NCBI RefSeq assembly: GCF_000478275.1
Contig: NZ_ASJB01000028.1
Span: 310,001-374,000 of the forward strand
Length of the DNA: 64,000 bases
DNA from: Amycolatopsis orientalis DSM 40040 = KCTC 9412
GTDB taxonomy: Bacteria > Actinomycetota > Actinomycetes > Mycobacteriales > Pseudonocardiaceae
Direction of reading: 5' to 3'
Shown here in pieces: positions 1,738-54,220 of this stretch. Under the pieces are notes generated by a model. The model was not told the DNA's origin, ran no database searches, and worked only from the letters and a program-made list of their open reading frames with translations. Made by a program: the position numbers and the translations under genes. Within the stretch, counting starts at the first letter, position 1; the number at the start of each line of letters is the position of its first letter.

Positions 1738-2943
1738 GTGAAATACGCGTTCGCCCGGCTCTGGACCGGCAACACCGCCTCCGGGCTGGCGACCTGGGCA
1801 CTGCCGTTCATCCTCGGGCTGGCGGTGCTCGAACGGTCGCTCTCGGCCGTCGACCTGGGCATCGTGCTGGCCACCCGGACGGCGGGGTTCCTCGTGGCCG
1901 TCCCGGTGGCCGGAGTCCTCGCCGACCGGCACTCCCGCCGTCAGGTCGTGCTCTGGGCCGGCCTCGTCGCGGGTCTGGCCACTCCCCTGATCGCGGCCGG
2001 GATGGGCCGGTCCGTTCCGCTGATGGCCACCGCGGCCGCCGTCGTCGGGATCGGCCAGGGCGCGTGCCGCCCGGCGTTCCAGGCCCTGACCGCCGAAGTG
2101 ATCGCCGAGGACCGGCGTCAGCGGGCCAACGCGGCGATGACCCTGGCCGTGCGGGTCACGACGCTGGTCGCGCCCGGTCTCACCGCGCTGCTCGCCGTCG
2201 TCGCCTCGACCCCGGTCCTCGTCATCGGCACCGCCGTGCTGTGGCTGGCCGCGGCGCTGATCCCGCCCCGCGGCACCTTCACGCCGGTCCCTGCCGCCAC
2301 CAAGAGCCGCTTCGTCGGCGATTTCGCCGACGGGCTCCGTGAGGCTCGCCGTCACCCCTGGTTCCTGGCCGGGCTCGGCGCGCTGACGGCCGTGATCGCG
2401 ACCGGCTACTCGGCCACTGGTGTCGTGCTGCCCCTGGTCAGCCGCGACCGGTACGACACCGAAGCCGTCCTGGCCGGCGGGCTGACCGCGTACACGGTCG
2501 GCGCGCTCGTGGGCGCCGTCGTCATCGCGCGCTGGCGACCGCGGCGGCAGGGCTGGGCGGCGCTGATCGGGCTCGGCTGCTACGGCTTCGCGCCACTGAG
2601 CCTGCTGCTGCCGGTGCACCCGGCGTTCGTCATCGCCGCGTACGCCGTCGCGGGGCTGGGCATCGAACTGTTCAACGTCCCGTGGTTCACCGCGACCCAG
2701 CGGGAGGTCGAGCCGGGGAAGCTCGCCCGGGTGTCCTCTTTGGACTTCCTGTTCTCCTACGGCCTGGCCCCCGCCGGACTGGCGTTCATCGCGCCCGCGA
2801 TCGGCGAGTTCGGCGCGGTACCGGTGCTGGCGGTGTGCACGGTGGTCTGTTTCGCCGCACCGGCCGCCGCGGCACTCGTTCCGTCGTCGCGTGACTTCCG
2901 GGTGACACGGGTTCCCGCCGCACCGGTCAACGGCCGGTCGTGA
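1738..2943 (+). CDS. MFS transporter
   Basis: 401 residues starting at a GTG, with GGGAGAGG about nine bases upstream. It shows the twelve-helix major facilitator pattern, with the typical first-half motif as GVLADRHSRRQVV near residues 60-72. The sequence resembles drug or siderophore exporters of the EntS/MFS_3 type. The promoter region is shared with the divergent membrane-protein gene. The substrate cannot be read from sequence. The last codon overlaps the start of a promoter-like block (2940-2995) that also occurs upstream of the aldo/keto reductase region. Confidence 0.9.
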   Translation: MKYAFARLWTGNTASGLATWALPFILGLAVLERSLSAVDLGIVLATRTAGFLVAVPVAGVLADRHSRRQVVLWAGLVAGLATPLIAAGMGRSVPLMATAAAVVGIGQGACRPAFQALTAEVIAEDRRQRANAAMTLAVRVTTLVAPGLTALLAVVASTPVLVIGTAVLWLAAALIPPRGTFTPVPAATKSRFVGDFADGLREARRHPWFLAGLGALTAVIATGYSATGVVLPLVSRDRYDTEAVLAGGLTAYTVGALVGAVVIARWRPRRQGWAALIGLGCYGFAPLSLLLPVHPAFVIAAYAVAGLGIELFNVPWFTATQREVEPGKLARVSSLDFLFSYGLAPAGLAFIAPAIGEFGAVPVLAVCTVVCFAAPAAAALVPSSRDFRVTRVPAAPVNGRS

Positions 2944-2995
2944 CGTACAGGAATGACGTCATCCGACGGTCGCCGCGGTCAGCGCCGGATTCCTA
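2940..2995 (+). promoter_or_regulatory. Promoter-like block, copy 1 of 2
   Basis: Four elements have the same spacing here and in the copy at 8888-8943: GTGACGTACA (offset 0), ATGACGTC (13), TCCGACGG (22) and TCCTA (51). The ATGACGTCAT at 2953-2962 is a perfect palindrome. The constant spacing suggests a regulator site followed by a -10-like TCCTA. It now faces only a fragment of an ohr gene. Confidence 0.5.
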
Positions 2996-2999
2996 AGGC

Positions 3000-3163
3000 C
3001 TTCGGCGGCTCCGGCGACGGCACGAACCCCGGGCAACTGTTCGCCGCCGGCTGGGCGTCGTGCTTCGTCGGCGCCGTTCGCCGGGTCGCGGGCGTCAAGA
3101 AGGTGAAGGTGGACGACGCGGGGGAACATCGAGGTCACGCTGGACGCGACGGTCGCGTGAGGT
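3000..3163 (+). pseudogene. Remnant of an organic hydroperoxide resistance (Ohr/OsmC) gene
   Basis: The reading frame gives AFGGSGDGTNPGQLFAAGWA, then SCFVGAVRRVAG and KKVKVDDA. This closely matches the segment around the first catalytic cysteine of Ohr/OsmC peroxidases (usual form NPEQLFAAGYAACF). One frameshift later the Ohr-like phrase NIEVTLDATVA appears, then a stop. The N-terminal strand region and the second half with the other catalytic cysteine are absent. Intact Ohr is about 140 residues and only about 50 remain, so this is a decayed, non-functional fragment. The open frame beginning at 2953 is mostly promoter block plus this fragment. Confidence 0.75.
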
Positions 3164-3169
3164 GCCCGG

Positions 3170-3215
3170 CTCGTGAGTGGTAAAGACGGTTCTAACCGTC
3201 TTTACCACTCACGAG
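3170..3215. repeat. 46-bp perfect palindrome, copy 1
   Basis: Two perfect 22-bp arms (3170-3191 and 3194-3215) flank a 2-bp centre, CT. The left arm starts CTCGTGAGTGGTAAAGAC. A second copy at 28975-29020 differs by one A/T change in each arm, so pairing is kept. Here it covers the last seven codons and the stop of the LuxR gene on the minus strand, and could act as its terminator. Confidence 0.9.
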
Positions 3216-5903
3216 ACCCAGGGCTCCCTTGAGTTCCGCCCTCGAACTCACGCCCAGCTTCGGGAAGATCCGGTGCAGATGCGTGCCGACCGTCCGGTGG
3301 GACAGGTAGAGCCGCTGCCCGATCTCCCGGTTCGTCAGCCCTTCCGCGGCCAGGTGCACGATGCTCAGCTCGTGCGGGGTCAGCTTCTCGCGCGCGTCGG
3401 GGCCGCGGTTGGGGCTGGACTCCCCCGCGCTTCGCAGCTCACGGCGCGCGCGTTCGGCCCACGCGGTCATGCCGAGCGCGTCGAACGTCTCCCGCGCGGT
3501 GCGCAGATGCGCCCGCGAGTCCACCGCGCGCCGCTGCCGCCGCAGCCACTCGCCGTAGGCCAGGTGCAGCCGCCCGCGTTCGGCGGGCCAGCCGTCCAGC
3601 TCCGCCCCCAGCGCGGTCGCGAACAGTTCGTCGCTCGGTTCGAGGACGGCACGGGCGTACCGCAAGCCGATGTGCAGGGCGGGCGCCGGGGTGATCAGGG
3701 CGAGCCGTTCCATCTCCGCGACGATCTCGCGCAGGGCCTCGACCTGTCCTGCCCGGATCGCGACCTCGGTGAGCTCCGCGACGAAGTAGACGCGCAGTGC
3801 CGGCTGGCAGGCGGGATCGGCGGGATCGAAGAGGCGCCGCAGGTCGGCGAACGCGTCGTCGAAGCGGCCCTCGCTCGACGCGGCGATCCCCCTGGCGAGC
3901 CGCACGGTCGCCAGTACCGGCCGGGCACCGGCGGCGAGCGCGGTCCGTTCGGCCTCGTCGGCCAGCGTTCTGGCCTGTTTGTGCTCGCCCCGCAGCGCGG
4001 CGATCTCGGCCTGGACCGCGGTGGCGAAGCCGTACATGAACGGCTGCCCGGTCTCCCTGGCGAATTTGGCCGCTTCCGCCGCGACCGGCACGGCCCCGGC
4101 GAGATCCCCGAGCCGGACCCTGCTCCACGCCTGGACCGCCAAGGCCCGCGGCAGCAGCCCGAGCCTGCCTTGCGCCCGCAGTCCGGGTGCCGCGGCCGCG
4201 GAGAACCGGGCGGCCAGATCGACCGCGCCGACCTGCAGGGCCGCACTGCCGAGAAAGCGGTCGACCTCGGGGTCGGCACCGGTCCCGGCGGCGAGCGCAC
4301 GCAGCCCGGCGAGCACCTCCCCGGCCCGCTCGAACGGCGCCACGTAGGCGGCGACCGCGACCAGGCGCGGGTCCGAGTTCTCCACCGGGAGACGGTCCGC
4401 GACGGCCAGCAGGGTCCGCCGGGTGTCGGCGCCGGGTTCGGTCCAGAAGCACCGCATGGCGGCACCCCACAGCACGCGCATCGCCGGATCCGGCTGCCCG
4501 TCCTGCGCGACCGACTCGGCCAGCCGGGCCAGTTCCGCGATCCGCGAGCGGTCCTCGCGGACGCCGTCCTCGAACCCGCTGAGCAACCAGCTCGCCGTCG
4601 CCCGTTGCCGGGGCGTGAGTTCTCCGGCGCGGGCCTCCAGGACGAGCCGTTCCGCCGTCTCACGGCCGCCGGATTCCACGGCCAGCTCGGCCGCGCGCAG
4701 CAACCGGTCCGCCCGGCGCTCCGGATCGACGCTCATCAGGGCCGCTCGCTCCAGCGCGGCGACGGCGGCCGTCGCTCCGCCGCGGTGCCGCGCGCGGTCG
4801 GCGGCGTTCTCCAGTTCCCGTGCGACGTCTTCGTCGGCGCCGGTCGCGGCGGCGGCCAGGTGCCAGGCACGGCGATCCGGCTGCTCGCGGAAGACCTCGG
4901 CGAGGCTCAGGTGCGCGCGCCGCCGTTCCTCGGCCGGTACCGAAGCGGGAATGGCCGAGCGCATCAGCGGATGCCGGAACGAGACAGCGCTGGCTTCGAA
5001 GTCGATCAGGCGGGCCTCGGCGGCGGGTGCCAGCGCCGACGGCTCGACGTCCTCGCCCAGTAGCGCGCCCGCCGCCGCGAGTGTCCCGGCGAGCGAGCCG
5101 GTCTCGCTGAGCGCGGCGACCAGCAAGGTCGTGCGGGCGGGCTCGGGCAGGGCGGTGAACCGGGCACCGAACGTGCGCTCGAGCCGCTGGGTCAGCGGCA
5201 GCACGGGATCCGATGCCCTGGTCACGGCCGACGGCAACTCGGTCAGGGCCAGTGGATTGCCGTCGGCTTCGGCGAGGATCCGGGAGCGGACCGGCGAGGC
5301 GAGCCCGGGGGCGACGGAGTCGAGCAGCTCCGCCGCCACCTCTCCGGGGAGGCGTTCCAGGTCCATTGAGGACAGTCCCGCGTCACACAGGGGCGACGGC
5401 ACCCCGTCCCGGACGGTCGCGATCAGGACGATCGGTTCCGTCTCGATCCGCCTCGCCACGAACGCGAGCACGTCGGCGCTCTCGCGGTCCATCCAATGGA
5501 CGTCGTCGGCGACGATCAGCAGCGGTTTGGCCGCCGCCTCCTCCGAAAGCAGCGTCAGCGCGGCGAGCCCGGCGAGGTACGCGTTCGGCTCGGCCGCTTC
5601 GGCCAGCCCCAGCGCCGCCCAGAGCGCGGAACGCAGCGGCGCGGGCAGGGTGTCGGCACCGGCCCGGACTGGATGGAGCAGCTGGTGGAGAGCGGCGTAC
5701 GGGAAGTTCCGTTCGGCCTCGACACCGGTCGCGCGCAGCACGCGCACTCCCCCGAGCGTCGCCGCGGCGACGACCTCCGCGACGAGAGCCGACTTCCCGG
5801 CGCCGGGTTCGCCCTGGATGAGCACACCGCCGCAGCCCGCGGCGGGACCGTCGACGAGCTCACTCAGGTCCTTCAGCTCGGCATCCCGTCCGAAAAGCGG
5901 CAT
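3192..5903 (-). CDS. LuxR-family transcriptional regulator, LAL type
   Basis: 903 residues in the classic large ATP-binding LuxR (LAL) arrangement. An N-terminal AAA-type ATPase has Walker A GEPGAGKS at residues 31-38 and a Walker B region LLIVADDVHWMD near 130. A long helical, TPR-like middle follows, and a LuxR/GerE helix-turn-helix lies at about 841-895 (LTPHELSIVHLAAEGLTNREI). Such regulators activate catabolic or secondary-metabolism operons in response to a small ligand. The last seven residues (LVSGKDG) and the TAG stop come from the palindromic element at 3170-3215, so the C-terminal tail is probably an acquired end. It transcribes away from the tannase-like remnant. Confidence 0.95.
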   Translation of the reverse strand: MPLFGRDAELKDLSELVDGPAAGCGGVLIQGEPGAGKSALVAEVVAAATLGGVRVLRATGVEAERNFPYAALHQLLHPVRAGADTLPAPLRSALWAALGLAEAAEPNAYLAGLAALTLLSEEAAAKPLLIVADDVHWMDRESADVLAFVARRIETEPIVLIATVRDGVPSPLCDAGLSSMDLERLPGEVAAELLDSVAPGLASPVRSRILAEADGNPLALTELPSAVTRASDPVLPLTQRLERTFGARFTALPEPARTTLLVAALSETGSLAGTLAAAGALLGEDVEPSALAPAAEARLIDFEASAVSFRHPLMRSAIPASVPAEERRRAHLSLAEVFREQPDRRAWHLAAAATGADEDVARELENAADRARHRGGATAAVAALERAALMSVDPERRADRLLRAAELAVESGGRETAERLVLEARAGELTPRQRATASWLLSGFEDGVREDRSRIAELARLAESVAQDGQPDPAMRVLWGAAMRCFWTEPGADTRRTLLAVADRLPVENSDPRLVAVAAYVAPFERAGEVLAGLRALAAGTGADPEVDRFLGSAALQVGAVDLAARFSAAAAPGLRAQGRLGLLPRALAVQAWSRVRLGDLAGAVPVAAEAAKFARETGQPFMYGFATAVQAEIAALRGEHKQARTLADEAERTALAAGARPVLATVRLARGIAASSEGRFDDAFADLRRLFDPADPACQPALRVYFVAELTEVAIRAGQVEALREIVAEMERLALITPAPALHIGLRYARAVLEPSDELFATALGAELDGWPAERGRLHLAYGEWLRRQRRAVDSRAHLRTARETFDALGMTAWAERARRELRSAGESSPNRGPDAREKLTPHELSIVHLAAEGLTNREIGQRLYLSHRTVGTHLHRIFPKLGVSSRAELKGALGLVSGKDG

Positions 5904-6039
5904 GGTGGCGCATTCCTCCCCCGGCCATGGGCGGCCGCCCGTCCGACGATACCCAAACGGTCCGATCTGGACCGGTGATGGTGGCGGCGTCCACAGGATG
6001 TAGACGGCGTGTCAACACGACCGGCCTAGCTTCGGGAAA

Positions 6040-6281
6040 GTGATGAGACGCAAGAAGTTGTTCCTGGCGGCGGCACCGCTGGCCGCCCGGTGCTGTTCCG
6101 CCAGTCGGTGCGGGAATACGACGACGTCATCGGGACGTCGGACCCGGATCTGTCGGACTTCCGCCGGGCGGCACGCTGCGGTACCGCCACGTACCGCGGT
6201 CACGGTGATCCCGCGGTGGCGTCGAGCTATCGCTGCACCGGCCGCCCCCACCGGTACGACGGGCACTTCCTCATACTGTGA
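6040..6281 (+). pseudogene. Remnant of a tannase/feruloyl esterase-like gene
   Basis: An ATG-led frame encodes a signal-peptide-like start (MRRKKLFLAAAPLAA). After a frameshift the sequence reads REYDDVIGTSDPDLSDFRRA and then ATYRGHGDPAVASSYRCT before a TGA. The first phrase matches the conserved YDDxxGTxDPDLSxFRxAGG stretch of tannase/feruloyl esterase proteins, and the second resembles their extreme C-terminus. The family is normally about 500 residues, so most of the protein, including the catalytic core, has been deleted. Recognition is by memory of family motifs, hence moderate confidence. Confidence 0.55.
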
Positions 6282-6564
6282 GAAGTTCCGGCGTTCCCTT
6301 TGCCATACCCCTCAAAAGTACGGTATTGACGACAGTGGACATCGCGACCGGCCGAATCGGACACGTCCGCGCCGCCCTGGTCCACGGCGCCTGAAACCCT
6401 TGCACCGCAACGAAACCACCGGCCCGTCCGGCAGGACCGGCCGCCATATCGCGCTGCGCTCAGCCCGGCCGATATGACCCAAATGGTATGTACCAGTCGC
6501 GTGATCCGCCTCGTACGGTCGGGATCGACTCTCCCTCCCCGCCCGTTTCGAGGAAAGCGTTGAC
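6282..6564. other. Gene-free stretch upstream of the protease
   Basis: This is what remains of the 5904-6564 gap after the tannase-like remnant. No open frame with family resemblance and no strong inverted repeat was seen. It presumably holds the promoter of the protease at 6565. Confidence 0.4.
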
Positions 6565-7905
6565 ATGAACAGAAAGATCCTCGCCGCCACAGCCGCGGCC
6601 ATCACCGGGGCAGGCTTGATCACCGCCATCGCCCTCACGCCCAGCGCGAGCGCCGGTCAGCAAGCCTCCGCCGGCGACCAGGCCCAGTCCGAAATGCTGG
6701 CCGCGATGTCCCGCGATCTGAAGATCAGCCCCGAACAGGCCAAGATCCGGCTCGCGAGCGAGCAGCGCGCCGCGATCGCCGACAACACGCTGAAGAAGCA
6801 GCTCGGCATGTCGTACGCCGGGTCGTGGCTGGACGCCACCGGGACCGCGCTGACCGTGGCCGTCACCGACGCCGCCCAGGCCGACCTGGTGCGCGCCGCG
6901 GGCGCCACCCCGAAGACCGTCGCCCGCAGCGCCGCCGATCTCGACGCGGCGAAACTGCGGCTGGACGCCAAGTCCACCAAGGCACCGAAGACCGTGCCCG
7001 GCTGGTACACCGACGTCGTCACCAACTCGATCGTCGTACTGGCCAACGCCGGTGGCGAGGCCGCCGCGAAGGCGTGGGCCGCGGAGTCCGGTGTGCAGGC
7101 CGATCTGGTGCGCGTCGAGACCAGCACGGAGAAGCCGCGGGCGCTGATCGACATCATCGGCGGCAACGCCTACACCTTCGGCTCGGGCCGCTGCTCCATC
7201 GGTTTCCCGGTCGAGGGCGGATTCGTGACCGCCGGCCACTGTGGCACCACGGGCACGCGGACCTCGAACCCCAGCGGGACCGTCGCCGGCTCCAGCTTCC
7301 CCGGCAACGACTACGCCTGGGTCCGCGCCGACGCCGGCAACACCCCGCGCGCGCTGGTCAACCGCTACCCCGGCACCGTGCCGGTGGCCGGTTCGACCGA
7401 GGCCGCGGTGAACTCGTCGGTCTGCCGTTCCGGCTCCACCACGGGCTGGCACTGCGGCACGATCCTGCAGAAGAACACCTCGGTCACCTACCCCGAGGGC
7501 ACCATCACCGGCCTGACCCGGACCAACGTCTGCGCCGAACCCGGTGACTCGGGCGGTTCGTGGATCACCGGCGACCAGGCGCAGGGCGTCACCTCGGGTG
7601 GCTCCGGCAACTGCACCTCCGGCGGCACCATCTACTTCCAGCCGGTCAACGAGATCCTGGGCGTCTACAACCTGCGCCTGATGGTCACCGGCACCCCGCC
7701 GTCCAGCACGACCACCACGCCGACCACCACCCCGACCAGCCCGACGACCTCGAACCCGCCGGGCGGCACCTGGGCGCCGTACACCTACTACGGCTCCGGC
7801 GCGACCGCCACCTACGGCGGCAGCACCTACCGGGTCATCCAGCCGCACACCTCCATGCCCGGCTGGGAACCGCCGAACGTGCCGGCGCTTTGGGAACTCG
7901 CCTGA
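6565..7905 (+). CDS. Secreted serine protease (S1, streptogrisin-like) with C-terminal CBM5/12-type module
   Basis: 446 residues: signal peptide (about 1-30), alpha-lytic-type propeptide (about 40-197), and a mature chymotrypsin-fold protease starting near IIGGNAYTFGSG (198). The catalytic triad is visible as His225 (TAGHCG), Asp249 (GNDYAW) and Ser329 (EPGDSGGSW). Paired cysteines at 210/226 and in the later CRSG/WHCG segments match streptogrisins. A Thr/Ser/Pro linker (about 377-402) leads to a 44-residue aromatic module (WAPYTYYGSGATATYGGSTY) like the chitin-binding CBM5/12 domain, as in streptogrisin C. It is predicted to be exported, self-processed and held on chitin or cell-wall glycan. 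A perfect hairpin terminator follows at 7912. Confidence 0.93.
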   Translation: MNRKILAATAAAITGAGLITAIALTPSASAGQQASAGDQAQSEMLAAMSRDLKISPEQAKIRLASEQRAAIADNTLKKQLGMSYAGSWLDATGTALTVAVTDAAQADLVRAAGATPKTVARSAADLDAAKLRLDAKSTKAPKTVPGWYTDVVTNSIVVLANAGGEAAAKAWAAESGVQADLVRVETSTEKPRALIDIIGGNAYTFGSGRCSIGFPVEGGFVTAGHCGTTGTRTSNPSGTVAGSSFPGNDYAWVRADAGNTPRALVNRYPGTVPVAGSTEAAVNSSVCRSGSTTGWHCGTILQKNTSVTYPEGTITGLTRTNVCAEPGDSGGSWITGDQAQGVTSGGSGNCTSGGTIYFQPVNEILGVYNLRLMVTGTPPSSTTTTPTTTPTSPTTSNPPGGTWAPYTYYGSGATATYGGSTYRVIQPHTSMPGWEPPNVPALWELA

Positions 7906-8543
7906 CCTGGACCGCCCCCGGCGAACGCACCTCGCCGGGGGCGGCTCCTCCCCCTGACGACGGCGCACTGACGGCGGATCTGGAGTCCCTCGTCCCCCGT
8001 GCCCGCGACGGCGATCCCGCCGCGACCCGGGAGCTGATGGGCATCGTCGAGCCGGTCGTCGCAAGCTATTGCCGGAGCCGGATGGAGGGGACGGACGCGC
8101 GCGTGATCGGCGCGGAGGACGTCGCACAGGAGACCTGTCTCGCGGTGCTCACCGCGCTTCCCACCGCCAGGACCACCGGTCGCTCGTTTCTCACCGCCGT
8201 CCTCGGGATCGCCGCCCGGAAGGTCGCCGCTGCCTTCCGGAGGCGGGCACGGGACCGCTCGGAACCCACCCCGGACGTACCCGACCGCGCGACGCCCGAG
8301 CCCAACGAACCCGAACGGCAGGCCCTCGCCGCCGACGGCCACGACCGGCTGACCCGCCTGATGAGCACCCTTCCCGGACTTCAGCAGGAGATCCTCCGGC
8401 TGCGGATCACCGTCGGCATGTCGGCGCCCGAAACAGGTGCGGTCCTGCGGGTCAGCCCTGGACTGGTCCGGGTCGCCCAGCATCGCGCCCTGCACCGGCT
8501 CCGCGCGATCCTGAGCGAGGGCGACCCGGGAACAGCCCCGTGA
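7890..8543 (+). CDS. RNA polymerase sigma factor, ShbA-like
   Basis: The sequence from LESLVPRARDGDPAATREL to the C-terminus has sigma-70 region 2 (DVAQETCLAVLTALP) and region 4 (LPGLQQEILRLRITVGMSAPETGAVLRVS, then VRVAQHRALHRLR). The order and wording resemble ShbA, the Streptomyces sigma factor that drives the principal sigma gene hrdB. The start is uncertain. ShbA-like similarity extends upstream of the first ATG (8037), but the only earlier in-frame start codon is TTG 7890, inside the end of the protease gene and before a terminator hairpin. With the ATG start (GGGAG four bases upstream) the protein would lose the first part of region 2. Confidence 0.8.
   Translation: MGTRLTWTAPGERTSPGAAPPPDDGALTADLESLVPRARDGDPAATRELMGIVEPVVASYCRSRMEGTDARVIGAEDVAQETCLAVLTALPTARTTGRSFLTAVLGIAARKVAAAFRRRARDRSEPTPDVPDRATPEPNEPERQALAADGHDRLTRLMSTLPGLQQEILRLRITVGMSAPETGAVLRVSPGLVRVAQHRALHRLRAILSEGDPGTAP
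7912..7944 (+). terminator. Hairpin terminator after the protease gene
   Basis: Perfect 13-bp arms CCGCCCCCGGCGA (7912-7924) and TCGCCGGGGGCGG (7932-7944) with a 7-base loop lie seven bases past the protease stop. The hairpin falls inside the upstream part of the sigma-factor frame. Confidence 0.75.
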
Positions 8544-8550
8544 TCGGCGT

Positions 8551-8796
8551 TCAGCGCTGGATACAGTCGAGCCCCAGCCCGAACGTGGTGAGTACGTACT
8601 GACAGACGTGCGTCGCGTGCACTTCGTCGGTTTCCAGGCAGCCCACCGGAATGCCCAGCAGATCGACGGCGCACGAGGCGTAGAACAGATTCGGGCTTCC
8701 CGGCACCGGGTCCGCGACGGCGGGCGAAGCGGCGACGGCACCCGCCGACACCATGAGCGCGACCGTGGCCGCCAAAGCGGCGATACGAGTCTTCAT
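8551..8796 (-). CDS. Small secreted cysteine-containing protein
   Basis: 81 residues starting MKTRIAALAATVALMVSAG, a clear Sec signal peptide with likely cleavage after AVA or VADP. The mature part is about 50 residues with four cysteines (YASCAVDLLG, VGCLET, HVCQY, LDCIQ), which could form two disulfides. No named family was recognised. It converges on the sigma-factor gene with only seven bases between them. The AGGAGAG just upstream of the ATG supports the start. Confidence 0.8.
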   Translation of the reverse strand: MKTRIAALAATVALMVSAGAVAASPAVADPVPGSPNLFYASCAVDLLGIPVGCLETDEVHATHVCQYVLTTFGLGLDCIQR

Positions 8797-15943: not shown

Positions 15944-17245
15944 GTGAGTTCCACCGCCTGGTTCACCCACGACCGGTTCGGGATGTTCGTCCACTGGGGA
16001 CTGTATTCGCTGGCCGCCCGGCACGAATGGGTGCAGAACCGCGAAGAACTGACCGACGAGCAGTACCGCGTCTACTTCGACCACTTCGAACCGGACAAGT
16101 ACGACCCGCGTTCCTGGGCGCGGGCCGCGAAGACCGCGGGCATGACCTACGTCGTGCTCACCACCAAGCACCACGACGGTTTCTGCCTGTGGGACAGCGA
16201 TCTCACCGACTTCAAGGTGACGAACACGCCGTATGGCAAGGATCTGCTCGGCCCGTTCGTCGACGCCTGCCATGAAGAAGGCTTGAAGGTCGGCTTCTAC
16301 CATTCGCTGATCGACTGGCACCACCCGGCTTTCCCCGTCGACGGCACCCATCCCCGCCGTGACGACGCGGAGTACATCGCCGCGCACCAGTACGCCGACA
16401 TCGCCGAATACCGGCTCTATCTCCACGGTCAGGTCCGCGAGCTGCTCACCCGCTTCGGCACGATCGACTACCTGTTCTTCGACTTCTCGTACCAGGGCCG
16501 CAAGGAATGGTGGGGCGGCAAGGGACCGGACGACTGGGACTCCCCCGGCCTGCTCGCGCTGGTCCGCGAACTGCAGCCCGGCATCCTGGTCAACGACCGC
16601 ACCGGCATCCCCGGCGACTTCATCACCCCGGAGCAGTACCAGCCGTCCGGGCCGATGACCCGCGACGGCGTCCCGGTGGTGTGGGAGGCATGCCAGACCC
16701 TCAACGGCAGCTGGGGTTACGACCGCGACAACCTCGACTACAAGAGCCCCGAACTGCTCATCCGGATGCTGGTCGACGGCGTGTCCAAGGACGGCAACCT
16801 GCTGCTCAACGTCGGGCCGAACGGCCGGGGCGAGATCGACCCGCGAGCGCTCGAAGTGCTCGCGGAACTCGGCCGCTGGATGGACCGGCACGAACGCTCC
16901 ATCCGCGGCTGCGGCCCGTCGGAGTTCACCGCGCCCGCGGACTGCCGCTACACCCAGCGCGGGGACCGGCTCTACCTGCATCTCTTCAGCTGGCCGATGA
17001 ACCACGTCCACCTGCCCGGGATGGCCGGGCGGGTGCGCTACGCCCAGTTGCTCGACGACGCCTCGGAAATCCGGCAGGTGCACACCGATCCCGGCCAGAC
17101 CGCGCAGAACACCCAGATGGGCGGGCAGCCGGAAGGCACGCTCACCCTCAAACTCCCCATCCGGAAACCGGACACCCCGGTGCCGGTGATCGAACTGTTC
17201 CTGAGCACACAAAGCCCCGCCGCCGAAACCCTCCCCACCGATTGA
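15944..17245 (+). CDS. Alpha-L-fucosidase, GH29
   Basis: 433 residues from a GTG with AAGGAG upstream. The GH29 pattern is clear: N-terminal WFTHDRFGMFVHWGLYSLAA, then YVVLTTKHHDGFCLWDS, and the nucleophile region IDYLFFDFSYQGRKEWW. Later come NLLLNVGPNGRGEIDP and a short beta domain. There is no signal peptide, so it acts inside the cell on imported oligosaccharides, releasing L-fucose or a related alpha-linked sugar. It lies 27 bases after the permease, in operon order. Confidence 0.93.
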   Translation: MSSTAWFTHDRFGMFVHWGLYSLAARHEWVQNREELTDEQYRVYFDHFEPDKYDPRSWARAAKTAGMTYVVLTTKHHDGFCLWDSDLTDFKVTNTPYGKDLLGPFVDACHEEGLKVGFYHSLIDWHHPAFPVDGTHPRRDDAEYIAAHQYADIAEYRLYLHGQVRELLTRFGTIDYLFFDFSYQGRKEWWGGKGPDDWDSPGLLALVRELQPGILVNDRTGIPGDFITPEQYQPSGPMTRDGVPVVWEACQTLNGSWGYDRDNLDYKSPELLIRMLVDGVSKDGNLLLNVGPNGRGEIDPRALEVLAELGRWMDRHERSIRGCGPSEFTAPADCRYTQRGDRLYLHLFSWPMNHVHLPGMAGRVRYAQLLDDASEIRQVHTDPGQTAQNTQMGGQPEGTLTLKLPIRKPDTPVPVIELFLSTQSPAAETLPTD

Positions 17246-17258
17246 GCACGGAGGCATC

Positions 17259-18701
17259 ATGGATCGCAGAAGGTTCCTCAGCGGCGCCACCCTCGGCGCC
17301 GCGCTGATCACCGTCCCCTGGGTCACCGCGGGCACGGCGTCGGCCACCCCGCAAGGGCTGTGCGCCCTCACCGTCAGTTCGCTGACCGAACTGCAGAACG
17401 CGATCGACCAGGCGGGCCCCGGTGCCGTCATCACCGTGAACGACGGCGCGTACACCGTACCGACGGGCAACCCGATCAGCATCAAGGGCAGGCGCGGCAC
17501 GAAGGATCAGCCGATCACGATCGTCGCCCAGTCCCGAGGCGGGGTGACGTTCAACGGCGAGCAGAGCTTCGTCTTCGACGACTCCACCGGCGTCACGCTC
17601 AGCGGGTTCAATTTCCGGCAGAGCACCACGCTGGAGATCCCGGCGAACTGTTCGCGGATCCGCCTGACCCGCAACGACTTCCAGCTGGCCGACATCGAAG
17701 GCCTGCACTGGGTGATGGTCCGCGCCGACTACAGCAAGGTCGACCGCAACCACTTCCACCACAAGACGACGCTCGGCGTCATGCTCTGCATCGAGGGCGC
17801 GGACGAAGACAAGATGGCGGTGGGCGTCCACGTCGTGCGGAACTACTTCTCCGACCACACCTTCGCCGGCGACAACGGCGGCGAGCCGATCCGGCTCGGC
17901 GTCAGCCCGCGCGCGCTGAGCACCGCCGGCGCCACGGTGGAGTACAACCTGTTCGAACGCGCGAACGGCGACCCGGAGGCGATCTCGATCAAGTCGTCGG
18001 GCAACTTCATCCGCAACAACACCATCCGGAACAGCCTGGGCGGCATCGTGCTGCGCCACGGGAACAAGACCGTCGTCGAATCCAACTTCATCCTCGGCGG
18101 CAAGGAAGGCATCCGGATCTACGGCAACGACCACAAGATCCTCAACAACTACGTCGCCGGGGTGTCCGGCACCGCGCTGGTCGTCGGCAGCGGCACCGTT
18201 CGGGACCACTTCCCGGGTGAGTCCAAGGAATCCCGGCGCGGCAACGACGCGGCCGACCGCGTGCTCATCGCGCACAACACGCTGCTGAACAACAGCGGCA
18301 CGCTCGCCGGCGAGACCAAGCGGACGATCGAACCGCGTGACTGCACGATCTCGGACAACATCTTCGTCGGCGGCAACGGCGACCTGGTCGCGATGAGCAC
18401 CACGGGCAACTTCACCTGGTCGGGCAACATCCTGTGGGGTTCGGGCGGGGACGGCAACATCCCGGCGGGCACCTTCCGCCGCGTCGACCCGAAGCTCGTG
18501 CAGGGCGGCGACGGCATCTCGCGGCTCGCCGCGGGCAGCCCGGCGATCGACGCGGCGACGCTGAGCACCGCGCCGACCACCTTGGACCTCGACGGCCAAG
18601 CCCGCGGCAGCCTGCGCGACGTCGGGGCGGACGAGTACTCGACGGCCGCCATCGCCAACCGGCCGCTCACCACCGCGGACGTCGGACCCGGCGCTCCGTA
18701 G
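17259..18701 (+). CDS. Secreted polysaccharide lyase, PL6 (alginate lyase/chondroitinase B-like)
   Basis: 480 residues with a Tat-type signal (MDRRRFLSGATLGAAL; RRRFL), then a right-handed parallel beta-helix built from short repeats such as TVVESNFILGGKEGIRIYGN. The PL6 active-site pair appears at the expected spacing: Lys245 in AISIKSSGNF and Arg266 in GGIVLRHGNK. The family cleaves alginate or dermatan-type uronic acid polymers by beta-elimination. Exported folded enzyme here would make oligosaccharides for the adjacent uptake system. A strong hairpin follows the stop. Family call is firm; the polymer is not known. Confidence 0.9.
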   Translation: MDRRRFLSGATLGAALITVPWVTAGTASATPQGLCALTVSSLTELQNAIDQAGPGAVITVNDGAYTVPTGNPISIKGRRGTKDQPITIVAQSRGGVTFNGEQSFVFDDSTGVTLSGFNFRQSTTLEIPANCSRIRLTRNDFQLADIEGLHWVMVRADYSKVDRNHFHHKTTLGVMLCIEGADEDKMAVGVHVVRNYFSDHTFAGDNGGEPIRLGVSPRALSTAGATVEYNLFERANGDPEAISIKSSGNFIRNNTIRNSLGGIVLRHGNKTVVESNFILGGKEGIRIYGNDHKILNNYVAGVSGTALVVGSGTVRDHFPGESKESRRGNDAADRVLIAHNTLLNNSGTLAGETKRTIEPRDCTISDNIFVGGNGDLVAMSTTGNFTWSGNILWGSGGDGNIPAGTFRRVDPKLVQGGDGISRLAAGSPAIDAATLSTAPTTLDLDGQARGSLRDVGADEYSTAAIANRPLTTADVGPGAP

Positions 18702-18708
18702 CGAAACC

Positions 18709-18746
18709 GGGCTCACACCGGCGGCCGTCCCCGCCGGTGTGAGCCC
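18709..18746 (+). terminator. Hairpin between the PL6 gene and the LacI gene
   Basis: Perfect 16-bp arms GGGCTCACACCGGCGG (18709-18724) and CCGCCGGTGTGAGCCC (18731-18746) with a 6-base loop follow directly on the PL6 stop. It likely ends or attenuates the upstream operon before the regulator genes. Confidence 0.75.
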
Positions 18747-18768
18747 GCCGCACCCCCGAGGAGGAACC

Positions 18769-19809
18769 ATGGCGCAGCGCGCCGCGGGGTCGGCCACCTT
18801 GGCCGACGTCGCCCGTGAGGCGGGAGTGTCGCTCGCGACCGCGTCGAGGGCGCTCAACGGCGGGACCAGACAGGTCAGCGGCAACCTGCGCGAATCGGTG
18901 CTGCGGGCCGCGGAACGGCTGCGGTACACCGCGAACGTGCCCGCGCAGGCGATGGCGCGCGGCCGCGGCAACGTCGTGGGGCTGCTGGTGCACGACATCG
19001 TCGACCCGTACTTCTCCTCGATCGCTTCCGGGGTCATGCGCGTGGCCGCCCGGCACGGGCTGACAGTCACCATCGCGAGCACGGAAAACCGGCCGGAGAA
19101 GGAACTCGAATACGTCACGACGTTGCGCGGGCAACGGGCGCGGGCGGTCATCCTGGCCGGTTCGCGCAACGAGGACAGTGCCCTGCAACAGAATCTGACC
19201 AAGGAGCTCAAGGCGTTCGAAGCCGCCGACGGCCGCGTGGTGGTGATCGGGCAGCGGAAACTGCCGTTCGACACGGTCATGCTGGAGAACCGGCCGGGAG
19301 CCGCCGCCCTCGGCGAACAACTCGCCGGGCTCGGACACCGCGACTTCCGCGTGCTCGCCGGGCCGCCGGGACTGCTGACCTCGCGCGATCGCGTCCTGGG
19401 CTTCCGCGACGGACTCGCCCGCCACGGCGTCTCCCTTCCCGAAACCCAGGTCCTGCACGCGGAATTCACCCGCGACGGCGGCTACGCGGCGATGGTGCGG
19501 GCGCTCGAAGGCGGGTTCAGCCGGGGCTGCGTCTTCGCGGTCAACGACGTGATGGCCGTCGGCGCGATGGCCGCCTGCCGCGACCGCGGGGTGGAGGTGC
19601 CGTCGCCCATCGCGATCGCGGGGTTCGATGACATCATCACCTTGCGCGACATCAGGCCTTCACTGTCCACCGTGCGCGTCCCGATCGAGACGATGGGGGA
19701 ACAGGCGCTCGACTTCGTCCTCGCCGACCGCGCGGGCAGCCCGCGCGTCAAGCCGGTCACCGGCGAGGTCGTGCTGCGGGAAAGTACACAACTGCTGGAG
19801 GAACGATGA
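18769..19809 (+). CDS. LacI-family transcriptional regulator of the glycan locus
   Basis: 346 residues from the ATG behind GAGGAGGAACC; an in-frame GTG 30 bases upstream lies in the terminator region. The N-terminal helix-turn-helix reads TLADVAREAGVSLATASRALNGG, and a periplasmic-binding-like sensor domain follows (VVGLLVHDIVDPYFSSIASG to AIAGFDDIITLRDIRPSLSTV). It is probably the repressor binding the AGCGCT site at 12713, with a sugar from the imported glycan as inducer. It overlaps the next gene by four bases. Confidence 0.92.
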   Translation: MAQRAAGSATLADVAREAGVSLATASRALNGGTRQVSGNLRESVLRAAERLRYTANVPAQAMARGRGNVVGLLVHDIVDPYFSSIASGVMRVAARHGLTVTIASTENRPEKELEYVTTLRGQRARAVILAGSRNEDSALQQNLTKELKAFEAADGRVVVIGQRKLPFDTVMLENRPGAAALGEQLAGLGHRDFRVLAGPPGLLTSRDRVLGFRDGLARHGVSLPETQVLHAEFTRDGGYAAMVRALEGGFSRGCVFAVNDVMAVGAMAACRDRGVEVPSPIAIAGFDDIITLRDIRPSLSTVRVPIETMGEQALDFVLADRAGSPRVKPVTGEVVLRESTQLLEER

Positions 19810-20567
19810 TCCGCCCTGGACTGTGTTCGGTGACGCTGCGGCGGCTGGACGCCGACGAGGTCGCCCGCCGTGCCGCGGAAGCGGGTCTGCGGGTGATCGA
19901 GTGGGGCGCCGACGTCCATGTGCGCCCCGGCGACGACTGGGCCGCCGACCGCGCGCTGGAAGCCATGGCACGGCACGGGCTGACCTGCGATTCCTATGGC
20001 TCCTACTTCCGCGCCACCCCGGTGGAGGCCGGGAAGTTCGGGGACATCGCCGCCACCGCGGTCCGGCTCGGCGCCACCAGGATCCGGGTGTGGGCGGGCA
20101 AAGCGGGCTCGGCGGACGTCGACCCCGAGGAACGGGAGCAGATCGTCACCGGTCTCCGCGAGGCCGCCGACGTCGCGAACGAACACGGTCTCGAAGTGGC
20201 GCTGGAGTTCCACGGCGGGACGCTGACCGACACCGCCGAGTCGACAGTGCGGCTGCTCGAAGAAGCCGGCCGCGACAACCTCGGCACCTACTGGCAACCG
20301 CCGCAGGACCTGCCGGACGAACCGGCGCTGGCGGGACTCGAACTCGTCCTCGACCGGGTCCGCGCGGTGCACGTGTTCTCGTGGTGGCCCAGTAACGAGC
20401 GGCATCCACTGACCGCCAGGGCGGAGTTGTGGACGCGGGCGTTCGCGCTGCTCGCGAAGACCGGGCGGCCGCTCGACGCGCTGCTGGAGTTCGTCCCGGA
20501 CAACGATCCCGCCCTGATCCCGGGCGAGGCCGACTCCCTCCGCAAGCTGATCGAGGCGGGCGCGTGA
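19806..20567 (+). CDS. Sugar phosphate isomerase/epimerase family TIM barrel
   Basis: 253 residues of the xylose-isomerase-like/AP-endonuclease 2 barrel: PGLCSVTLRRLDADEVARRA with VIEWGADVHV, then GATRIRVWAGKAGS, VALEFHGGTLTDTAEST and AVHVFSWWP. The Glu and His residues on these strands would bind the metal ion. It likely isomerises or epimerises the monosaccharide freed by the locus enzymes. It overlaps both neighbours by four bases (ATGA and GTGA), so it is translationally coupled. Confidence 0.85.
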   Translation: MIRPGLCSVTLRRLDADEVARRAAEAGLRVIEWGADVHVRPGDDWAADRALEAMARHGLTCDSYGSYFRATPVEAGKFGDIAATAVRLGATRIRVWAGKAGSADVDPEEREQIVTGLREAADVANEHGLEVALEFHGGTLTDTAESTVRLLEEAGRDNLGTYWQPPQDLPDEPALAGLELVLDRVRAVHVFSWWPSNERHPLTARAELWTRAFALLAKTGRPLDALLEFVPDNDPALIPGEADSLRKLIEAGA

Positions 20568-21196
20568 GGTTCACCGAAGCCGACCGCCTGCTGTTCGCCG
20601 GCGACTCGATCACCGATTCCGGCCGCGACCGCGAGGATCCCGCGTCGCTGGGCAAGGGGTACGTCCGGCAGATCGCCGACCGCCTCGGCGAGGGCCCGGA
20701 GGTGCTCAACAAAGGCCTCAACGGCAACCGGATCTACGATCTGGAGGCCCGCTGGACCACCGACGTCCTCGCGTTACGGCCCACCGTGCTGACCGTGAAG
20801 ATCGGCATCAACGACACCTGGCGGACGTTCGACCGCGGCCTGCCGAGCCCGGTCGGAAAGTTCCGCGCCGCCTACTCCCGGCTGCTGGCCGATGCGCGGC
20901 AGCACCTCCCGGCGGAGCTGTACGTCATCACGCCGTTCCTGCTGCCGGTCGAGCCGGAACAGCACGAATGGCTCGACGACCTGGCTCCCCGGATCGAGGT
21001 CGCGGTCGACGTGGCGACGGAGTTCGGCGCGCGCCTGGTGCGCGCGGACCTGTTCATGCCCAGGGCGGCGGAAGAACACGGGGCCGCGACGCTGGCGCCG
21101 GACGGCGTCCACCCCAGCCCACTCGGTCACCGCCTGCTCGCCGAGGCGTGGCTCGCCACGGCCGGTGCTCCGGTCGAAGGGGCCCCGCTCTCCTAG
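20564..21196 (+). CDS. SGNH/GDSL hydrolase (esterase or deacetylase)
   Basis: 210 residues from the GTG that overlaps the previous stop. All SGNH blocks are present: FAGDSITDSGRDRED (nucleophile Ser), a Gly block KGLNGNRIYD, Asn in KIGINDTWR, and the Asp/His pair in LAPDGVHPSPLGH. There is no signal peptide, so it would remove acyl or acetyl groups from imported sugars inside the cell. Codon 71 is TTA (20774-20776), rare in this sequence, which hints at dependence on the bldA-type leucine tRNA. Confidence 0.9.
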   Translation: MRFTEADRLLFAGDSITDSGRDREDPASLGKGYVRQIADRLGEGPEVLNKGLNGNRIYDLEARWTTDVLALRPTVLTVKIGINDTWRTFDRGLPSPVGKFRAAYSRLLADARQHLPAELYVITPFLLPVEPEQHEWLDDLAPRIEVAVDVATEFGARLVRADLFMPRAAEEHGAATLAPDGVHPSPLGHRLLAEAWLATAGAPVEGAPLS

Positions 21197-21266: not shown

Positions 21267-22580
21267 GTGACACGTGAAGGTGAGCTCGTCGCCGGCCGGT
21301 ACCGGCTGGAGCGCAAGGTCGGCCGGGGCGCGATGGGCGTGGTGTGGCAGGCGCGGGACGAACGGCTCGGCCGGACGGTCGCGGTCAAGCAACTGCTGCC
21401 GGGCACCGTGCCGGACGACGCCCCGTTCCGCTCGATCGTGCGCGCGATGCGGGAGGCGCGGGTCGCCGCGAAGCTCAAGCACCCGCACGCCGTCACCGTG
21501 TACGACGTCGCCGAGCAGGACGGGACGCCGTTCCTGATCATGGAGTTCCTGCCGTCGCGGCCGCTCACGGACCTGCTCGCGGACGACGGCCCGCTCCCGG
21601 CGGGGCGGGTGGCGGAACTCGGCGCGCAGATCGCGTCGGCGCTGGCCGCCGCCCACGCGGACGGGATCCTGCACCGCGACGTCACCCCCAACAACGTCCT
21701 GATCACCGAGGACGGGCAGGCGAAGATCGCCGACTTCGGGCTGTCCCACGCCGCGGGCGAGGGGACCATGACCGGCGGCGGGCTCGTCGTCGGTACTCCG
21801 GCGTTCCTCTCCCCCGAGGTCGCCGACGGTGCGGAACCCGGCTATCCGTCGGACGTGTTCTCCCTCGGCTCGACGCTCTACACCGCGCTCGAAGGCGCGC
21901 CGCCGTTCGGCACCGACGGCAACCAGATCGCGCTCCTCAAACGGGTCGCCCGCGGCGAGATCACCGCGCCGCGCAACTCCGGCCCGCTCACCGACGTCCT
22001 GCTGCGGCTGCTCCGGCACGCGCCCGGCGAGCGGCCGGACATGGCCGAGGCGGAGCGGATGCTGACCGCGGTCGCCGAGGGCCGTCCTGCGGTTCTCGCC
22101 GGTACGAAACGACTTCCCGCGCCGACCGGCCCTTCGAAGCTGCCGCTCGCCATCGGTGGTGGTGTGGCGGTGGCCGGTGCTGTCTTGGCGGGAATCCTGC
22201 TGTTCGACGGCGGCCCGGCCGAGAAACCCGTGGCGGCGCCGCCCGTGCCCGGGCAGAGCACCAGCGTCGAGCGGCCGGTGTGCGAGGCGCGCTACGAGGT
22301 GACCAATCGCTGGCCCGGCGGCTCGGAGATCCGGGTGTCGGTGCGGAACGCGAAGGACACCCGGCTCACCGGCTGGGAGGTCAGCTGGACCATGCCGCCC
22401 GGCACCCGCATCGCCAATCTGTGGAACGGTTCCCTGGCACAGGACGGAGACCGCGTGCGGGTGTCCGAACTGGACTGGAACGCGGTCCTGCCCGCCGGCG
22501 GGACGACCACCTTCGGTTTCATCGCGACCACCGACGACGGGGGCGGGAGTCCGCCGGTCGCTCAGTGCCGCAGCTCCTAG
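21267..22580 (+). CDS. Membrane Ser/Thr protein kinase with extracellular CBM2 domain
   Basis: 437 residues from the GTG at 21267; the longer open frame upstream is a shadow of the esterase gene. The kinase domain (about 10-270) is complete: glycine loop KVGRGAMGVVW, Lys41, catalytic Asp138 and Asn143 (LHRDVTPNNV), and DFG at 156-158. One helix (about 291-313) crosses the membrane. The outside part (339-434) is a family 2 carbohydrate-binding module: Cys339 and Cys434 can bridge, and Trp349, Trp370, Trp374, Trp386 and Trp404 are in CBM2-like positions (RLTGWEVSW, LWNGSL). CBM2 binds cellulose or chitin, so the kinase may sense polysaccharide at the surface. Confidence 0.93.
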   Translation: MTREGELVAGRYRLERKVGRGAMGVVWQARDERLGRTVAVKQLLPGTVPDDAPFRSIVRAMREARVAAKLKHPHAVTVYDVAEQDGTPFLIMEFLPSRPLTDLLADDGPLPAGRVAELGAQIASALAAAHADGILHRDVTPNNVLITEDGQAKIADFGLSHAAGEGTMTGGGLVVGTPAFLSPEVADGAEPGYPSDVFSLGSTLYTALEGAPPFGTDGNQIALLKRVARGEITAPRNSGPLTDVLLRLLRHAPGERPDMAEAERMLTAVAEGRPAVLAGTKRLPAPTGPSKLPLAIGGGVAVAGAVLAGILLFDGGPAEKPVAAPPVPGQSTSVERPVCEARYEVTNRWPGGSEIRVSVRNAKDTRLTGWEVSWTMPPGTRIANLWNGSLAQDGDRVRVSELDWNAVLPAGGTTTFGFIATTDDGGGSPPVAQCRSS

Positions 22581-54206: not shown

Positions 54207-54220
54207 TGAGAGCGCTCCCA
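54207..54220. promoter_or_regulatory. CebR/CelR-like operator
   Basis: TGAGAGCGCTCCCA differs at one base from the known CebR/CelR box TGGGAGCGCTCCCA that represses cellobiose genes in Streptomyces and Thermobifida. It lies upstream of the binding-protein gene. Confidence 0.7.

Follow-up and report, generated by a model that had tools for sequence, protein, structure and literature searches.

The RsgI-type anti-sigma factors of Clostridium thermocellum are membrane proteins whose carbohydrate-binding module (CBM) ectodomain reads insoluble polysaccharide. Among receptor Ser/Thr kinases, pairing of the kinase N-lobes activates PknB and PknD, ligands have been proposed to concentrate the PASTA kinases locally, and the signals that bacterial receptor kinases sense have not been fully clarified (PMC3601408). 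Streptosporangium roseum and Thermobispora bispora also have Ser/Thr kinases close to CelR sites (PMC3377646).

Here we describe a gene in a window of 64,000 nucleotides (the whole stretch of DNA analysed) from the 9.06 Mb genome of Amycolatopsis orientalis DSM 40040 = KCTC 9412, whose product probably serves as a solid-polysaccharide receptor, since relatives across one bacterial family keep its binding surface. The protein resembles PknA/PknB-type kinases in kinase fold and sequence and in its order of N-terminal kinase, one transmembrane (TM) helix and C-terminal outer domain, but it has a CBM2 in place of PASTA repeats and a Thr in place of Lys at HRD+2. It shares with RsgI-type proteins an outer CBM on a membrane protein, whereas the cytoplasmic part of RsgI is an anti-sigma factor rather than a kinase. 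Its CBM2 has the fold and aromatic face of the CBM2a modules of cellulases, xylanases and LPMOs (EngD, 3ndy; Cex, 1exg; ScLPMO10C, 6f7e), yet sits on a putative receptor kinase rather than a secreted enzyme. The S. roseum and T. bispora kinases are likewise actinobacterial Ser/Thr kinases associated with the use of cellulose, and a LacI regulator lies beside them; they differ in their link to a CelR site, which the CBM2 kinases do not have, and the available part of that paper mentions no CBM (PMC3377646). Among the matches listed from the open-access literature, no title or abstract opening described a kinase–CBM2 receptor, and the available part of PMC4898821 holds nothing on kinases.

Domain layout and selective constraint

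The open reading frame given in the earlier note was recovered exactly, from its GTG start to the stop codon that ends at 22580 (Table 1). The Pkinase match of Pfam scores 152.7 bits against a cut-off of 31.7, and the CBM_2 match, at residues 339–424, scores 86.7 bits against a cut-off of 24 (E 1.5e-24); the latter ends at profile position 86 of 101 (span 1–86), though Cys434 is present. The Pfam search found no other extracellular family in the 437 residues. The NCBIfam model PknB_PASTA (NF033483) scored 227.6 bits, below its cut-off of 450, and no PASTA family appeared in the Pfam search, so the protein does not class with the PASTA kinases.

Table 1. Features of the kinase–CBM2 gene and its upstream neighbours, in positions of the window
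Feature	Position	Strand	Basis
Kinase–TM–CBM2 putative receptor gene, 437 aa, GTG start	21267..22580	+	ORF, Pfam, full-length relatives
Hanks-type Ser/Thr kinase domain, residues 12–262	21300..22052	+	PF00069 E 1.7e-44; PknA/PknB fold matches
Catalytic loop HRDVTPNN, residues 136–143; Thr140 at HRD+2	21672..21695 (Thr140 21684–21686)	+	Sequence, alignment
Single membrane helix, about residues 292–313	22140..22205	+	Hydropathy; low-confidence model helix 292–311
Extracellular linker (predicted), about residues 314–338	22206..22280	+	Low pLDDT; dN/dS 0.50
CBM2 (CBM2a-like), residues 339–434; C339/C434, W349, G352, W386, W404	22281..22568	+	Pfam, conservation, fold
GDSL-type esterase, ends 70 bases before kinase start	20561..21196	+	PF13472 E 1.4e-22
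GH29 fucosidase, chondroitinase-B-like beta-helix protein, LacI regulator, xylose-isomerase-like TIM barrel, upstream	15944..20567	+	Pfam

A single hydropathy peak (best 19-residue Kyte-Doolittle mean 2.31; next best elsewhere 1.0) bears out the one membrane helix read previously. Lys precedes this helix and Asp follows it, which is consistent with the kinase lying inside the cell and the CBM2 outside. In a model of the whole protein the helix falls within a low-confidence stretch, and pLDDT is below 50 for residues 311–334. Pairwise dN/dS, taken as the ratio of medians over 120 pairs from 16 close sequences including the window's own, was 0.18 for the kinase, 0.13 for the TM segment (292–311), 0.50 for the linker (312–336) and 0.19 for the CBM2. 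Both the kinase and the CBM2 are thus under constraint, and the tether between them is loose.

The binding face of the CBM2 and the active site of the kinase

Modelled alone, the C-terminal 102 residues gave a predicted fold with pLDDT 93.8 that matched the CBM2 of EngD (3ndy_E; Z 14.8, rmsd 1.8 Å over 100 residues), a cellulose-binding domain of Cellulomonas fimi (6qfs, Z 14.7; 1exg from Cex, Z 12.4) and ScLPMO10C (6f7e, Z 11.2), with chitinase and xylan-binding domains among the further matches. The nearest solved sequences were ScLPMO10C (6f7e, E 6.9e-16), EngD and Cex. Profile score and fold together assign the module to CBM2, and W349, W386 and W404 align with three Trp of the Cex CBM2a 1exg (W17, W54 and W72 by counting).

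We examined conservation in 121 ORFs with both kinase and CBM2 matches, drawn from a whole-protein search and representing 120 places, as one is a cut copy. C339, W349, W370, W374, W386 and C434 are invariant (121/121). Position 404 is Trp in 98, Tyr in 14, Phe in one and His in five, with a gap in three, so that an aromatic residue (W/Y/F) stands there in 113; alignments place Tyr and His at the equivalent position in the solved CBM2s EngD and ScLPMO10C also. G352, at W+3, is Gly in 119 and Ala in two, and never Arg. The cysteine pair and tryptophans that the earlier note had read in a CBM2-like module were therefore found in place, the cysteines bracketing the domain, and its proviso that the aromatic face be conserved in homologues was borne out. 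This conserved face speaks for retained carbohydrate binding; since the solved CBM2 relatives include both cellulose binders and chitin binders, conservation does not single out the glycan. Gaps at position 404 are confined to one small group (L073, L074 and L075), whose CBM2s may have changed their ligand or their binding.

Arg at W+3 is a mark of CBM2b, and the fold matches include 1e5b, the R262G mutant of a xylan binder. CBM2b modules are also without the stretch that bears the third exposed Trp (PMC9996879). That stretch is present here, as in CBM2a, and with Gly at W+3 the CBM2b or xylan type is ruled out on sequence.

The best fold matches of the whole protein were PknA (Z 33.6) and PknB (Z 31.2), and this search shows kinases only because one domain fills its list. 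A Pkinase score over cut-off, together with the VAIK Lys (K41), alpha-C Glu (E63), HRD (H136-R137-D138), catalytic Asn (N143) and DFG (D156-F157-G158), identifies a Hanks-type kinase. In 22 diverse members R11 and L34 never vary and D80 hardly does; these presumably correspond to the PknB interface residues R10, L33 and D76, and the fold matches include L33D and D76A mutants. The earlier reading of an intact kinase holds for the catalytic residues but is too strong overall, because the catalytic-loop Lys at HRD+2 of HRDxKxxN is replaced by Thr140.

This loss of the HRD+2 Lys in CBM2 kinases is newly noticed here. In the genus set, the position is Thr in 64 rows, Ser in 16 and Lys in four (84 rows, the window's protein counted twice). 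Among 122 CBM2-kinase rows, in which L171 repeats L152, there are 70 Thr, 23 Ser and 29 Lys, giving Thr or Ser in 93/122, against 1/140 readable rows of other kinases (150 rows: Lys in 139, Thr in one, and ten with no readable motif, nine of them pseudokinases). The substitution takes four steps on the kinase tree and, as 29/122 rows keep Lys, is not needed for the architecture. The one other kinase row with Thr, L186 from Streptomyces niphimycinicus, also has Gly for the HRD Arg (HGDVTPEN).

Lys at HRD+2 is usual but not universal, being found in 86% of human Ser/Thr kinases; tyrosine activity of human NEK10 requires HRD+2 Thr together with a residue other than Pro at APE-4 and is abolished by Pro there, and in NEK1 HRD+2 Thr alone brings no shift towards tyrosine (PMC6570481). 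Because the window kinase has Pro178 at APE-4, we do not predict a tyrosine kinase; we predict an active but altered Ser/Thr kinase, in which Thr140 may weaken or change catalysis. The combination of HRD+2 Thr with APE-4 Leu does occur, in 14 paralogues.

Spread of the fusion and its genomic company

At least one kinase–CBM2 fusion, counted from matches that reach the C-terminus, is present in 48/80 Amycolatopsis genomes. Elsewhere in the Pseudonocardiaceae, at least 51 further genomes in 10 other genera, of 271 genomes sampled, carry the fusion, which is thus found in at least 11 of the 46 genera sampled. This family count covers five scored candidates per genome among the matches listed, and asks for a match to residue 421 or beyond (G277 was judged from its sequence); of 20 examined stretches with shorter matches, one (L131) carries a CBM2. 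In 394 genomes of the class, with four candidates scored per genome at E 1e-68 or better, no fusion was found outside the family, the only one being the window's own. A scan of named genomes gave at least two fusions among the 80 loci listed, in Prauserella muralis and a Kutzneria sp., both in the family, and no plasmid had a place covering 80% of the query. The architecture is likely already present in protein databases. On a tree built from the kinase domains of 133 representatives, three changes account for the 35 CBM2 kinases, all of which fall in one starred group of 38 rows; the other rows of that group are two pseudokinase representatives and a kinase from another family of the class (L120). 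This suggests mostly one old fusion with later losses, and separate gains are also possible. We read the fusion as a family-wide putative receptor type that spans several genera and has paralogues, not a lone curiosity. Neighbouring kinase pairs without CBM2 occur at L132, L133, L134, L136, L137, L138, L140, L141 and L142; by eye, the end of one kinase in these pairs is a small domain in which an aromatic pattern repeats, and that of its partner is a Thr/Ser-rich tail.

Two CBM2 kinases are present in 15 of the loci L039–L078, lying head to tail in 14, usually HRDVT followed by HRDIS. In some species the active sites of the two kinases differ, one with HRD+2 Thr and APE-4 Leu (the NEK10-like kind) and the other with HRD+2 Ser and APE-4 Pro. 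In 9/14 head-to-tail pairs (L044, with the whole arrangement at 2880–8574, L046, L047, L049, L050, L051, L054, L060 and L065) the next gene is a membrane pseudokinase that lacks CBM2 but has an open reading frame and readable motifs, with HRG for HRD, GFG for DFG and Lys or Arg for the catalytic Asn; its VAIK Lys is lost in seven of nine and kept in L046 and L051. The pseudokinase is shorter in L061 and a broken remnant in L059, and none was found in the roughly 3 kb examined beyond the pair in L048, L057 and L066. Among the nine, pairwise dN/dS is 0.29, and in the one tested a kinase domain is still recognised by Pfam; the pseudokinase thus seems constrained where it is kept, yet some species can do without it. 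Families of pseudokinases have been described in actinobacteria, and the available part of the bacterial pseudokinase review that describes them mentions neither 'CBM' nor 'cellulose' (PMC12599244). These loci raise a tentative and rather doubtful picture of a solid-polysaccharide receptor system in the Pseudonocardiaceae, with CBM2 kinases mostly without the loop Lys, clustered in some species as two kinases with different active sites plus a CBM2-less membrane pseudokinase, and with altered phosphotransfer that might be tyrosine-directed or allosterically gated. As only 9/14 pairs have a full version, the pseudokinase is weakened as a fixed partner, which slightly lowers the standing of this picture.

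The surroundings of the window kinase partly match the earlier description of a window rich in glycan-degrading genes: a GH29 fucosidase, a chondroitinase-B-like protein, a LacI regulator and ABC transporter parts (a sugar-binding protein and a permease, upstream on the same strand) lie nearby, but there are no cellulases among the neighbours. Ten other loci of close relatives (of 15, each about 19 kb, read with a simple gene caller) carry GH29 in 9/10, LacI in 9/10 and the beta-helix protein in 10/10. This neighbourhood was found at 0/7 loci examined of the next paralogue group, where an HNH protein adjoins instead, and it therefore does not define the function.

We searched for the 14-bp palindrome of CelR-like sites. 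It was present in 0/121 kinase upstream regions (400 bases, up to two mismatches) and in 0/62 for control kinases, and in the locus of 5/7 other CBM2 genes of the same genome (three exact, two with one mismatch; the comparison covered seven of its 11 other CBM2 genes). With 0/121 we reject membership of a CelR/CebR regulon; as far as seen, the kinase lies outside a CelR-type regulon, which would make it a standing sensor or something else. Within the window, allowing up to three mismatches, the palindrome occurs only at 54207 and 61059. The CelR/CebR-like copy at 54207–54220, with one mismatch, lies close to where two genes begin, which by eye are a sugar-binding-protein-like gene on the − strand and a LacI-like regulator on the + strand; this is perhaps a sugar-uptake locus.

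GH6 was found in 48/48 fusion genomes of the genus versus 6/31 non-fusion genomes (Fisher p 2.9e-15), with weak hits in G058 and G072 set as absent and G062 dropped for having no rpoB match over threshold; the non-fusion figure becomes 8/32 when the two weak hits count as present and G062 is included. On the rpoB tree, this link comes down to about five independent changes, of which about two to three pairs agree and none oppose, and the sign test is not significant and cannot reach 0.05. Elsewhere in the family, among the matches listed, GH6 accompanies 32/51 fusion genomes versus 96/220 others (p 0.019), and in five genera that have the kinase GH6 is largely or entirely absent (present in 1/18 genomes). 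The GH6 link is lineage-bound, phylogenetically thin and modest outside the genus, and with so few independent changes we do not rely on it as support. The link to cellulose outside the protein itself is weak; the lack of a CelR-like site and of neighbouring cellulases, together with the lineage-bound GH6 link, disfavours a simple cellulose-regulon story.

A contact-receptor model and its alternatives

The domains and their order, the fold, the conservation of the binding face, the constraint on both domains and the spread through the family are directly supported. We favour, with moderate confidence, the reading of the protein as a PknA/PknB-like receptor kinase that crosses the membrane once and bears a type-A (flat-faced) CBM2a, a putative surface-polysaccharide receptor activated by clustering on the polymer. 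The kinase would lie in the cytoplasm, and the flexible linker would let the CBM2 reach the cell wall or extend past it, where its three-aromatic face would adsorb to an ordered beta-1,4-glycan, with cellulose the first candidate and chitin the second. An insoluble surface could then concentrate many receptors, so that N-lobes pair and the kinase domains switch on, as for PknB and PknD. The output would be phosphorylation of proteins, as a signal that the cell touches solid polysaccharide and not that soluble sugar is present. By analogy with the PASTA kinases, a CBM2a on a flexible tether fits such clustering.

Given the work on Streptomyces CslA, the best rival is that the ligand of the CBM2 belongs to the cell's own envelope, as a beta-glucan or chitin-like polymer made at hyphal tips, so that the kinase would monitor the wall and not food. 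The Streptomyces cellulose synthase CslA makes a tip beta-glucan, for which phosphorylation of T17 appears to be needed, and deletion of pknB leaves CslA hyperphosphorylated (PMC13432765), which we read as pointing to another kinase. A kinase with neither cellulase context nor a CelR-like site, held by some genera without GH6, would suit such a role. GlxA forms a complex with CslA (PMC13432765), but GlxA-type PF09118 is found in just 3/80 genomes of the genus, which weakens own-glucan sensing through CslA–GlxA, and presence in 48/80 genomes is oddly patchy for a core wall sensor. We consider own-glycan sensing unlikely, while giving it some weight. The module might instead be an anchor that holds the cell or kinase on polysaccharide while the kinase answers something else. 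Anchoring is the usual role of CBM2 in enzymes, and a linker that evolves fast and is modelled with low confidence is unlikely to transmit a conformational signal. Clustering, however, needs no rigid linker, and the protein offers no second extracellular family as the true sensor; a pure anchor therefore seems decidedly improbable.

Another reading concerns the output: the protein may not act mainly by ordinary Ser/Thr phosphorylation, but as a weak or pseudokinase-like scaffold, or with altered acceptor specificity, through the HRD+2 Thr. The strong skew towards Thr or Ser in CBM2 kinases, the part played by HRD+2 Thr in NEK10 and the membrane pseudokinase adjoining some paralogous pairs speak for it. 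The other catalytic residues are nevertheless kept, APE-4 is the Pro that abolishes tyrosine activity in NEK10, NEK1 was unmoved by HRD+2 Thr, and a share of the CBM2 kinases retains Lys; a non-standard output of this kind is in our view improbable, though not remote. A chance or misannotated fusion without function has next to no probability and is ruled out by the Pfam E-values, the recurrence in 121 ORFs and the purifying selection on both domains.

The contact-receptor reading bears on how bacteria detect a polymer that they cannot import, which has mostly been explained via soluble breakdown products. The outer domain points to a testable ligand and to exact residues to mutate, and the unexpected loss of the HRD+2 Lys offers a probe of whether a bacterial Hanks kinase can function, or change its acceptor, without that residue. 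If the reading is true, actinobacteria would owe a sense of contact to a kinase that touches solid polymer, and this kinase would provide a tool for engineered cellulose sensing.
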